A DNA stretch of 52,282 bases from Candidatus Eisenbacteria bacterium (GTDB lineage: Bacteria > Orphanbacterota > Orphanbacteria > Orphanbacterales > Orphanbacteraceae), in the NCBI GenBank assembly GCA_016867715.1, contig VGIW01000015.1:1-52282 (forward strand), read 5' to 3'. Each line of letters begins with the position of its first letter. Positions within the stretch are counted from its first letter, which is position 1. Shown here piece after piece: positions 41,932-52,282 of this stretch. The position numbers and the translations under genes were made by a program. The notes under the pieces were generated by a model that did not search any database, was not told where the DNA came from, and saw only the letters and a program-made list of their open reading frames with translations.

Positions 41932-42381
41932 TCAGCCTTCCTTCCGGTGCGCGGGCCCCAGCATCTTGCTCATCGTAACGGTCGTCCCGCGGGAAGGTTC
42001 GATCGCGAACCGCACTTCATCCATGAACGTCCGAAGAATGAAGATCCCACGCCCTCTCTCGCGCATGAGGTTCTCGGGGTCCCGCGGGTCGGCGACGGAA
42101 TCCGGATCGAAGCCCGTTCCCTGGTCCGAGACCTCGATCTCGAGCCGCTCCGGTTTCGACCGGAACCGGATGCGGACCTTCTTCCTCCGGTCGTTCTTGT
42201 TGCCGTGCTCGATCGCGTTCGTGCACGCCTCGATCACGGAGCTGCCGATCGCGTCCCGGACCTCGCGCGCGACCCCGAGACGTTCGGAGATCTCTTCCGC
42301 CACGGCGTTCACGAGAGAGAGATACTCGAGCGAGCTCGGAACGACGAGCTCGACGTTCTCCCAGCCGCCGGAAGGGTTCAT
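41932..42381 (-). CDS. RsbW/SpoIIAB-type anti-sigma factor kinase
   Basis: 149 residues. A GHKL ATPase fold: the N box EVRDAIGSSVIEACTNAIEHGNK (catalytic Glu and Mg-binding Asn), the G1 box VSDQGTGFDP and the G2 segment RGRGIFILRTFMDEV. Such proteins phosphorylate an RsbV-type partner on a serine and hold a sigma factor or other output. It follows rsbV by 5 bases and precedes the phosphatase. No sigma factor lies next to it, so the output target is elsewhere or non-transcriptional. Confidence 0.9.
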   Translation of the reverse strand: MNPSGGWENVELVVPSSLEYLSLVNAVAEEISERLGVAREVRDAIGSSVIEACTNAIEHGNKNDRRKKVRIRFRSKPERLEIEVSDQGTGFDPDSVADPRDPENLMRERGRGIFILRTFMDEVRFAIEPSRGTTVTMSKMLGPAHRKEG

Positions 42382-42386
42382 CGGAC

Positions 42387-42731
42387 CTACTCGCTCCCGA
42401 ACGTGACGAGCGCTTCATCCTCGGTGGGGTACGTTTCGAACACGGTCGAGAGTTTCGTGATCATGAGGACGGATTCGATCCTCTCCGCGACGCTCGCGAG
42501 CTTGAGAACGCCGCCGCCGTTCTTCACCGACGTGTACCCCGAGATGAGGATCCCGAGCCCCGTCGAGTTGATCCACGAGAGGTTCCCGAGGTTAAGGAGG
42601 ATCTTCTTCCTTCCGTCGGCGAGGAGCTGCTTGACCAGGTTCTGGAAGGTCGCCGCGTCCTCTCCCCCCATCAGCTTGCCGGAAAGCTCCAGAACGGTGA
42701 CATCTCGAATGTCTCGACGTTTAATGTTCAC
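42387..42731 (-). CDS. STAS-domain anti-anti-sigma factor (RsbV/SpoIIAA-type)
   Basis: 114 residues from the GTG at 42731 with AGAAGGGGGCGAGAA upstream. A STAS domain: VTVLELSGKLMGGEDAATFQNLVKQLL, KKILLNLGNLSWINSTGLGILI (phosphorylatable Ser in WINSTGLG) and VKNGGGVLKLASVAERI. In the partner switch, unphosphorylated RsbV binds RsbW and frees the output protein. It is the first gene of this run; a repeat element of 261 bp sits 15 bases upstream, so the promoter must lie in or beyond that element. Confidence 0.92.
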   Translation of the reverse strand: MNIKRRDIRDVTVLELSGKLMGGEDAATFQNLVKQLLADGRKKILLNLGNLSWINSTGLGILISGYTSVKNGGGVLKLASVAERIESVLMITKLSTVFETYPTEDEALVTFGSE

Positions 42732-49570: not shown

Positions 49571-50257
49571 TCACGCCCGCTCTCCGAAGATCGCGGTCCC
49601 CACGCGGACCATCGTCGCCCCCTCCTCGACCGCGATCTCGAAGTCTCCCGACATCCCCATCGAGAGATGGCGCATCGCGATCCCGCCGACCGGATCCGAG
49701 CGGAGCGCGTCGAAGAGGCGGCGGAGCGAGCGGAACGCGGCGCGGATTCTCTCCGCGTCGCCGGTGAGCGGCCCGATCGTCATGAGCCCGTCCGGAAGGA
49801 TGCCGGGAAGCTCCGCGATCCCATCGAGTATCGCCCGCACCCCCTCCGGATCGACGCCCGCCTTCGATTCCTCGCCGGAGACGTTCACCTCGACGAGAAC
49901 CGGGATCTTCCTCCCGGCCGCCTCCGCTCGGCGCGAGACCGCCTCGGCGAGCCGAACGGAGTCGATCGACTGGATTCGGTCGAACAGCTCCACCGCCTTC
50001 CCCGCCTTGTTTCTCTGGAGACTCCCCACCATGTGGCGTTCGGGACCGGCGAGGATCTCCGGCCATTTCGACTCCGCTTCTTGCACCCGGTTCTCTCCGA
50101 TCGCGGGCGCGCCCGCGCGGATCGCCTCGTTGATCCGATCGGGCGGAACGTTCTTCGTCACCGCGACGAGAAGGACCGCTCCCGGATCGCGCCCCGCGCG
50201 CGCGGCGGCGGCGGCGATTCGATCCCGGACTCTGCGGAGATTCTCCTCGATTCCCAC
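49571..50257 (-). CDS. YggS-family pyridoxal-phosphate-binding protein (PLPBP)
   Basis: 228 residues from the GTG at 50257, chosen for the GGGAGGTGACGGC ribosome site; the frame stays open upstream to 50287. A TIM-barrel with the PLP lysine in VLLVAVTKNVPPDRI, then GAPAIGENRVQEAESK, HMVGSLQRNKA, VEVNVSGEESKAGV and LSMGMSGDFEIAVEEGATMVRVGTAIFG. It buffers cytosolic pyridoxal phosphate and influences amino-acid and cofactor homeostasis; it has no demonstrated racemase activity. First gene of the minus-strand run, with its own promoter. Confidence 0.93.
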   Translation of the reverse strand: MGIEENLRRVRDRIAAAAARAGRDPGAVLLVAVTKNVPPDRINEAIRAGAPAIGENRVQEAESKWPEILAGPERHMVGSLQRNKAGKAVELFDRIQSIDSVRLAEAVSRRAEAAGRKIPVLVEVNVSGEESKAGVDPEGVRAILDGIAELPGILPDGLMTIGPLTGDAERIRAAFRSLRRLFDALRSDPVGGIAMRHLSMGMSGDFEIAVEEGATMVRVGTAIFGERA

Positions 50258-50277
50258 GCCGTCACCTCCCGCGCCGC

Positions 50278-50306
50278 AGGGTACCATCGGCCGCCGGGCG
50301 CCGCAA
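50278..50306 (-). promoter_or_regulatory. Possible promoter for yggS
   Basis: Minus strand TTGCGG (50301-50306), 17-base spacer, TACCCT (50278-50283), about 30 bases before the GTG at 50257. Confidence 0.4.
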
Positions 50307-50392: not shown

Positions 50393-51664
50393 ATGGGGGA
50401 CGTGAAGACGACGGCGGACAAGGCGCGCGTTCCGACTCCCACGGGTCCCGTCTCGTACGACGTCCATCCGTTTCTCGATCCGAGGTTCCCGAGCCGCTAC
50501 GCCCCCCTCGCGCGGATCTGGGTCGCGACGATGCGGCGCGCCCTCGCCGACCCGGTCTACTACGCGGAGATGCTCCGCTCGTACGCCAAGCCGGTGAGCG
50601 AGAAGGGGAGCTCGAGCGTCCTTCTCGGGCGTTACTTCCGCGACGCGGACGCGTATCTCGACGATCTTCTCCTTCTCGTCCCCCCCTCCTTCGCGGCCCA
50701 GATGCGCCCCCTCCCCGACACGCGGAGGGCAAACGACATGCTCCGCCTCTTCCGCTCGGCGATCGACGGCGAGGACTCGAGGACCCGTTACGAGGCGCAG
50801 AGGAAGCTCTATCTCGCGAAGCTTCTCTTCGACGTCGACCACTGCCGGAGCGTTCGGGACGGTCCCCGCCATCAGGCGCGCTTCGAGAGGATCCTCAAGG
50901 AGAACCTTTGGGTCGATCTCGTCGGCCATCGGAGCATCGAGGTGTGCTGCCGCTTCGCGGAGGCGAAAGACGGCGAGCAGGCCTTCGAGGTCGGCGTTCC
51001 CCCCGATCCAGGAGCGACCTGCTGGCGCTTCCAAGTGAAGATGCTCCCGGCGAAGAACGGCGACGCCGAGGTGCCTATCTACCATTATCGTTCACGCTTC
51101 AAGAGAGAGGCGAACCCGGAGCCGGGGCGCCCCTCGAAGAACGGCTTCCTCACGCTGACCGAGAGGCCCCGCTGGCCGGGGCTCGGACGCCGGAGCGGAT
51201 CGATCGTGAGCAAGATGCTCCGGCGGGGAATCGCCGACCCGCAGATGGTCGAGGATCTCCTCGGCGCGATGTTCATCGTCGGCGATCGGCGCCAGGCGTA
51301 CGCGCTCGAGCGCCGGCTCATCCACATGCTGGGCGGGCCGCTGCGATGGCGCGATCGGGTCGACACGCTCGCCGGGGAAAAAGACCGCCGCAAGATGGGC
51401 GTCCGCTCGTCGAGCGGTTTTCGCGTGCTGAAGTCGATCGTGGATGTCTTGACGGACGACCCGGGCGGGGCCGGCCCGTATTTCTTCGGGGTCGAGGTTC
51501 AGATCTTCCCGCTCGAGGACTACCTTCGCACGCTCCACGCGCGCCACTTCGCGAGCCACTACGCGTACAAGAGACGCCAGTTCCTCCACGATCTCCTTCC
51601 GATGCTCTTCCCGAGCGAGATCTACGGAAAAGAGACCGCTCACCTGGCCGCCGAATCGAAGTGA
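50393..51664 (+). CDS. Divergent RelA/SpoT-type synthetase-domain protein with novel N-terminal domain
   Basis: 423 residues from ATG 50393 (GAGG just upstream). Residues 265-395 align by eye with the RelA/SpoT (p)ppGpp synthetase domain: SGSIVSKMLRRG matches the K-S-x-x-S-I-x-x-K-M segment; EDLLGAMFIV carries the Mg-binding Asp (D288); GVEVQI has the catalytic Glu (E368); HARHFASHYAYKRR matches the MHxxAExGxAxHWxYK segment. The loop that is normally NGYxSLH reads SGFRVLK (341-347), so Asn, Tyr and His are replaced by Ser, Phe and Lys. About 260 N-terminal residues, helical with a Cys/Trp-containing beta segment, match no family I know. It may make an alarmone, use another nucleotide, or bind only. 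It is divergent from yggS. Confidence 0.6.
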   Translation: MGDVKTTADKARVPTPTGPVSYDVHPFLDPRFPSRYAPLARIWVATMRRALADPVYYAEMLRSYAKPVSEKGSSSVLLGRYFRDADAYLDDLLLLVPPSFAAQMRPLPDTRRANDMLRLFRSAIDGEDSRTRYEAQRKLYLAKLLFDVDHCRSVRDGPRHQARFERILKENLWVDLVGHRSIEVCCRFAEAKDGEQAFEVGVPPDPGATCWRFQVKMLPAKNGDAEVPIYHYRSRFKREANPEPGRPSKNGFLTLTERPRWPGLGRRSGSIVSKMLRRGIADPQMVEDLLGAMFIVGDRRQAYALERRLIHMLGGPLRWRDRVDTLAGEKDRRKMGVRSSSGFRVLKSIVDVLTDDPGGAGPYFFGVEVQIFPLEDYLRTLHARHFASHYAYKRRQFLHDLLPMLFPSEIYGKETAHLAAESK

Positions 51665-51849: not shown

Positions 51850-52282
51850 TCACATGGAGGAGAGCTCCTCGATCGTCCGATCGATGAGCCGCTTCGGGAA
51901 GATTCCCCCCTCCTCGAACACGCCGCGATCCTTCCGGAGCGCGAGGACTACATCCTCGAAGTTGTGCGGGATCGGCTCCGCGGCGCGGCGATCCCGATCG
52001 ATCCGGCCCGAGTCGGTCTCCGCGAGGATCTGATCGATCCCCTCTGCCTCGGCGCCCCACGCCACTGCTTGCGCCACGCCGGCGAGGAGAAGATACGGGT
52101 GGGCCGATCCGTCGGGGAGACGAAACTCGATCGTCGGCGGGCTCACGAGCCGCCCCTTCTCGGTGCGCGCGGAGATCGGGATCCGGACCAGGGCCCTCCG
52201 GTCCGCATCTCCCCACATCACCGAGTGAGGGGATTCCTTCCCCTGCGAGAGCCTCGCGAACGAACCGCCGGTTCGGTTTCCG
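51850..52282 (-). CDS. Glutamine synthetase, C-terminal part (5' end beyond window)
   Basis: 144 codons are visible, open to the right edge on the minus strand. The segment SPHSVMWGDADRRALVRIP and TIEFRLPDGSAHPYLLLAGVAQA matches the conserved C-terminal active-site region of glutamine synthetases (MxWGxxNRxAxxRIP, then ExRxPDxxANPYLALA). The C-terminus EPIPHNFEDVVLALRKDRGVFEEGGIFPKRLID is longer and more divergent than in typical GlnA, so the type (GSI variant or a GS-like ligase) is undecided. It joins glutamate and ammonia with ATP if it is a true glutamine synthetase. It is convergent with the RelA/SpoT-like gene. Confidence 0.8.
   Translation of the reverse strand, partial: GNRTGGSFARLSQGKESPHSVMWGDADRRALVRIPISARTEKGRLVSPPTIEFRLPDGSAHPYLLLAGVAQAVAWGAEAEGIDQILAETDSGRIDRDRRAAEPIPHNFEDVVLALRKDRGVFEEGGIFPKRLIDRTIEELSSM

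Follow-up and report, generated by a model that had tools for sequence, protein, structure and literature searches.

Results

An intact gene divergent to yggS

The window, by which we mean the whole stretch of 52,282 nucleotides analyzed from a Candidatus Eisenbacteria contig, carries an intact open reading frame (ORF) on the forward strand that the initial annotation had described as a RelA/SpoT-like synthetase with an altered nucleotide-binding loop. The features of this ORF and its two flanking genes are listed below, with residues numbered from the ATG at position 50393.

49571..50287, minus strand: gene for a yggS-type PLP-binding protein (PF01168), the divergent neighbor at 6/6 home-phylum loci
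50393..51664, plus strand: whole ORF, 423 amino acids from ATG 50393 or 420 from the likelier GTG 50402, kept in 7/7 genomes
50402..51007, plus strand: N-terminal region with invariant H25, E134, R137, K138 and H160, partly common to TIGR04552
51095..51103, plus strand: R235-F-K237, likely equivalents of FaRel2 R64 and K66 on strand beta1
51104..51193, plus strand: insertion of ~30 residues that separates beta1 from the phosphate-binding helix, as seen in alignments
51200..51223, plus strand: S270-xxx-K274-xx-R277, putative triphosphate-binding helix with canonical spacing, aligning with SIxxKM of RSH proteins
51254..51271, plus strand: D288-L-L-G291-A-M293, with the Mg-binding Asp kept and the adenine-stacking Arg replaced by Met
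51407..51433, plus strand: acceptor (G-)loop S339-SSGFRVL-K347, with aromatic residue 343 kept and invariant Lys347 in place of the NGYxSLH His
51494..51505, plus strand: E368-V-Q370-I, second catalytic-site strand with invariant Glu and Gln
51551..51583, plus strand: A387-S-H389-xxx-K393-RRQF, counterpart of the AAHWxYK that follows EVQI in RelA/SpoT
51850..52281, minus strand: glutamine-synthetase-like gene (PF00120), the convergent neighbor, cut by the window end and also adjoining the gene in genome G004

Translation probably begins at the GTG, the more likely of the two start codons because the ATG reads ATA in the sister genome L002. Searches recovered one gene copy from each of the seven genomes searched in the phylum of this organism (home phylum), at E values of 1e-133 or better. 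The gene is intact in all seven, at identities of 93-51%. When the window gene is compared with its nearest relative, which is 93% identical, 70 of 100 nucleotide differences fall at third codon positions, and dN is 0.035 relative to a dS of 0.261 (dN/dS of about 0.13). The ORF is a real, vertically conserved gene and not a chance reading frame.

The gene is divergent to a yggS-yggT-divIVA-ileS run. Such runs are a commonly conserved cluster, and therefore this neighborhood says little about function. Elsewhere in the window, a STAS-domain gene (42390-42731, minus strand) sits beside a putative anti-sigma kinase gene, judged by eye (41935-42381, minus strand), and in two genomes of another phylum (L077 and L078, of family f57 described below) a STAS-type gene immediately follows the family gene.

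The home genome also encodes a separate, normal Rel with HD, SYNTH, TGS and ACT domains. The acceptor loop of this ordinary Rel (L015, G000:C40:12717-13046) reads SNMYRSLHTTV rather than the usual NGYxSLH, and the NMY is common to the ordinary Rel of other home-phylum genomes. In two home-phylum genomes there is also another RelA_SpoT-domain protein of more divergent sequence (L016, G002:C31; L017, G005:C18), and the start of the L017 ORF looks by eye like a membrane protein. Two long proteins, L102 (G051:C95, 859 amino acids) and L104 (G174:C1, 566 amino acids), combine divergent RelA_SpoT domains with large extra regions.

Relationship to RelA/SpoT synthetases and TIGR04552

Searched alone, the window protein has no match in Pfam or NCBIfam, and sequence and profile searches of the PDB returned chance matches only (designed DHT03 repeats and sialidase B). 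Single-sequence structure predictions for the whole protein and for residues 205-423 yielded pLDDT values of 34.5 and 35.2, below usable quality. The family was represented by an alignment of 35 sequences (A2), which is the basis of all residue counts out of 35 given here. PF04607 (RelA_SpoT) is matched by 14 of the 35 members with a best E value of 5.5e-6. Among ten members scanned singly, the best score was 21.5 bits, below the Pfam gathering cut-off of 27 bits. When the C-terminal half of the family is aligned by hhalign with a profile of 36 RelA/SpoT sequences, the match reaches Prob 94, P 9.1e-8 and a score of 56.2, versus 14.2 for a reversed profile and at most 24.0 for 60 column shuffles. 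The depth of the reference alignment matters for this comparison, as evident by the Prob of 6 obtained with a shallow RSH alignment of four sequences. Comparison with SAS-type sequences gives P 5e-6.

The closest named families are the uncharacterized NCBIfam models TIGR04562 (26/35 members, best 2.4e-8) and TIGR04552 (20/35). The matches inspected in detail score far below the curated cut-offs (125/140 bits for TIGR04552/TIGR04562), the best of them reaching 33.6 bits versus 140. A TIGR04552 profile prepared from 14 proteins collected from other genomes aligns with columns 77-401 of our family at P 6.1e-13, extending into the N-terminal region, and with RelA/SpoT (RSH) proteins at P 1.8e-11. 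From these profile comparisons, TIGR04552 is itself a RelA/SpoT relative, and the window protein is best placed as a divergent SYNTH superfamily member whose clade adjoins TIGR04552. Homology of the family to this superfamily is very likely, and the (p)ppGpp synthetase relationship proposed in the initial annotation holds through the direct profile match, the PF04607 hits and the chain through TIGR04552.

TIGR04552/TIGR04562 proteins are similar in length to the window protein, are related to it over the C-terminal SYNTH-like part plus ~80 N-terminal columns, and share its K-xxx-S-xxx-K, D, E-x-Q and SHxxYKxxQ motifs. However, TIGR04552 proteins keep the Arg after the Asp, lack the Arg of R-x-K and have the normal K-to-S spacing. 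Their genes also differ in having neither a yggS neighbor nor the Cys/Met enzyme neighbor described below, and no clear conserved neighbors of TIGR04552 genes were observed. The literature on TIGR04552 yielded a single passing mention, of a mutation in Bdellovibrio.

A conserved donor site and a rebuilt acceptor loop

A structural reference is provided by FaRel2 with a bound ATP analogue, in which R64, K66, S70, K74 and R77 hold the triphosphate, R64, R95 and Q147 hold the adenine, E145 confers adenine specificity, D90 binds Mg and Y128 stacks the acceptor base (PMC11782079). All motifs cited in the initial annotation are present (SIVSKM 270-275, DLLG 288-291, SGFRVLK 341-347, EVQI 368-371 and HARHFASHYAYK 382-393), and S270, K274, R277, D288, E368 and Q370 match FaRel2 sites, with unchanged spacing inside the individual motifs (S-xxx-K-xx-R, D-xx-G and E-x-Q). 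The retention of Asp and Glu noted there extends to all aligned members, with D288 and E368 invariant (35/35). K274 is likewise invariant (35/35), and S270 (33/35) and R277 (34/35) are nearly so.

Upstream of this helix, R235 and K237 are also invariant (35/35). Canonical RelA/SpoT enzymes have three residues between the Lys and the Ser, whereas ~30 residues are inserted after beta1 in this family. Despite the insertion, R235 and K237 are likely the counterparts of FaRel2 R64 and K66, a placement supported by the distant protein from genome G164, which has RIK 14 residues before its Ser.

Other positions have changed. At the site of the adenine-stacking Arg after D-xx-G, 29/35 members have Met and 1/35 has Arg. 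The canonical NGYxSLH loop is absent and is replaced by one of the F/Y-x-V-x-K type, in which the His position is Lys347 in all 35 members, so that the loop alteration reported for this one protein proves to be family-wide. Residue 343 is aromatic throughout (35/35), as Phe in 26 and Tyr in 9. In FaRel2, the corresponding change of Tyr128 to Phe impairs catalysis (PMC11782079). Compared with the RelA/SpoT SYNTH domain (PF04607) of long Rel enzymes, the family thus has the same order and spacing of donor motifs, the EVQI strand and the AxHxxxK that follows, whereas both NGYxSLH and the adenine Arg are replaced. As judged from these alignments, the family has preserved most donor chemistry but has rebuilt adenine stacking and the acceptor pocket, because the donor residues are near-invariant and the sites equivalent to R95, Y128 and the NGYxSLH His have changed.

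The N-terminal region

Long Rel enzymes carry HD, TGS and ACT domains, whereas the window protein has none of the three, in agreement with the initial annotation: comparison with the HD domain of long RSH proteins gave no match, and Pfam gave none for TGS or ACT. The possibility that the N-terminus is a decayed HD hydrolase was also considered and rejected, as it bears no likeness to the RSH HD domain (score 14.0). This region was previously described as 260 residues long and new. Its length requires correction, since the conserved R235-F-K237 most likely lies in the first strand of the synthetase-like part, which most likely starts near residue 225-235. The N-terminal region has no Pfam or PDB match, yet it is not entirely new. 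About 80 columns of it resemble the uncharacterized TIGR04552, a resemblance that had gone unmentioned, with an hhalign score for the N-terminal part alone of 31.7 versus a shuffle maximum of 19.9.

Distribution and a gene partner in a second phylum

In a second phylum, profile searches recovered relatives from 32 of the 80 genomes searched, within its families f26 and f57. A distant, longer member is present in G164, the sole genome of its phylum searched. This protein (L113:1787-3457) has 557 amino acids, and its acceptor loop and EIQI strand are separated by a long additional segment. In a wide sample of 386 genomes, clear members are confined to the home phylum, G031 and G164; a weak match in G050 coincides in position with the ordinary RelA/SpoT gene of that genome. 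No relative was confirmed in a viral contig collection.

In a tree of 37 rows, the home phylum forms a single group (support 87/59) that includes a single f57 sequence, from a genome with two copies. The other f57 copies adjoin this group, and f26 supplies the remaining rows. We are unsure of the positions of G164 and of the odd f57 copy, because their branches are long. The f57 genome in question, G068, has two copies (L075 and L116), one of which clusters with the home phylum on a long branch, a pattern that suggests an old duplication or a transfer.

In f26, a gene for a PLP-dependent Cys/Met enzyme (PF01053, E 1.7e-147) lies 11-74 bp upstream of the family gene on the same strand at all 26 loci with upstream sequence. 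The closest models for this enzyme are those of methionine gamma-lyase, matched below their cut-offs. Among 38 f26 genomes, 27 have both genes together, nine have neither, and two have one only, at a fragment or contig edge. The sulfate-assimilation gene cysD follows the family gene in one genome. The family gene and the Cys/Met enzyme gene are probably co-expressed in the second phylum. Neither the home phylum nor f57 shows this link, nor do the surroundings of TIGR04552 genes; the nearest Cys/Met enzyme genes of the home phylum (37-44% identical) sit elsewhere in the genome. No paper tying RelA/SpoT enzymes to methionine gamma-lyase genes was found in the literature.

Discussion

We favor, with moderate confidence, the interpretation that the protein is an active ATP pyrophosphokinase with a changed acceptor, an N-terminal gate and, at least in f26, a link to sulfur amino acids, acting beside a normal Rel. 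Catalytic activity of the family as such is quite probable on the basis of sequence. ATP-Mg would be bound through R235, K237, S270, K274, R277, D288, E368 and Q370, and the beta,gamma-pyrophosphate would be moved to an acceptor hydroxyl, the acceptor being bound unlike GDP/GTP in RelA. The acceptor loop would retain its aromatic base-stacking residue, and both pockets appear to be reshaped, because the loop His is Lys and Met replaces the adenine-stacking Arg. The most likely role of the N-terminal region is to sense a ligand or partner and to gate activity. Since the protein is probably co-expressed with the Cys/Met enzyme in the second phylum, its product there most likely serves to report on sulfur amino acid metabolism or to control it. 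The ordinary stringent response would be served by the normal bifunctional-type Rel.

Several observations count against this interpretation. The adenine Arg is lost and Phe stands in place of Tyr in most members, and the equivalent Tyr-to-Phe change impairs FaRel2 catalysis (PMC11782079). In addition, the Cys/Met gene link is restricted to f26, and the window protein alone lacks a family match and yields structural models of low pLDDT.

It is somewhat unlikely that the protein is an additional (p)ppGpp or (p)ppApp synthetase of the ordinary kind, with a drifted sequence, that makes a standard alarmone when activated by an N-terminal signal. The SYNTH homology, the kept donor residues and the aromatic at the acceptor position in every member are all consistent with this alternative, and additional small synthetases are found in many bacteria (PMC3153485). 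However, an invariant Lys occupies the His position of NGYxSLH, the Asn-Gly is lost, the adenine-stacking Arg is Met and a 30-residue insert adjoins the ATP helix. That these pocket changes are common to the whole family suggests selection rather than drift.

The initial annotation had left open whether the protein is an enzyme of changed nucleotide preference or a binding-only relative. The second part is less supported, given the retention of almost every donor-site residue. A catalytically dead relative, limited to binding a nucleotide or tRNA and regulating a partner such as the adjacent PLP enzyme in the second phylum, would explain the loss of the adenine-stacking Arg and of acceptor-loop residues, as well as the tight pairing with one enzyme gene in f26. 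However, across two phyla almost every member has the Mg-binding Asp, the Glu and the phosphate-binding Lys, Ser and Arg, a degree of retention that is unusual for a pseudoenzyme and makes this alternative improbable.

RelP, RelQ, FaRel2 and CapRel likewise have a synthetase domain without a hydrolase, and the family shares the catalytic residue pattern of FaRel2 (PMC11782079), but it differs from these proteins in its large N-terminal region, fixed chromosomal place, lack of an antitoxin and acceptor loop. A toxSAS-type toxin that pyrophosphorylates the tRNA CCA end or makes ppApp, for toxin-antitoxin function or phage defense, is highly improbable: although toxSAS enzymes belong to the same superfamily and show that SYNTH acceptors can change (PMC11782079), our gene has a fixed genomic place and occurs in every searched home-phylum genome, its neighbors are yggS/yggT/divIVA/ileS and glnA or the Cys/Met enzyme gene with no antitoxin seen nearby, PADLOC gave no meaningful match and the viral contigs held no confirmed relative.

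Returning to the ATP pyrophosphokinase interpretation, its boldest form specifies a RelA/SpoT-fold enzyme whose acceptor is new, being neither a guanine or adenine nucleotide nor a tRNA end, and which is tied to methionine/cysteine or PLP metabolism. We regard this form as unlikely, and if true it would represent a new type of alarmone or of metabolite modification. More broadly, the comparisons extend the RelA/SpoT superfamily by TIGR04552 and by a further clade that all searched members of one small phylum have kept. They also turn a 'hypothetical protein' into a testable candidate enzyme with named active-site residues, an altered pocket and a gene partner that accompanies it almost without exception in one lineage. 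The family thereby raises the question of whether the alarmone fold may act on acceptors beyond purine nucleotides and tRNA ends.
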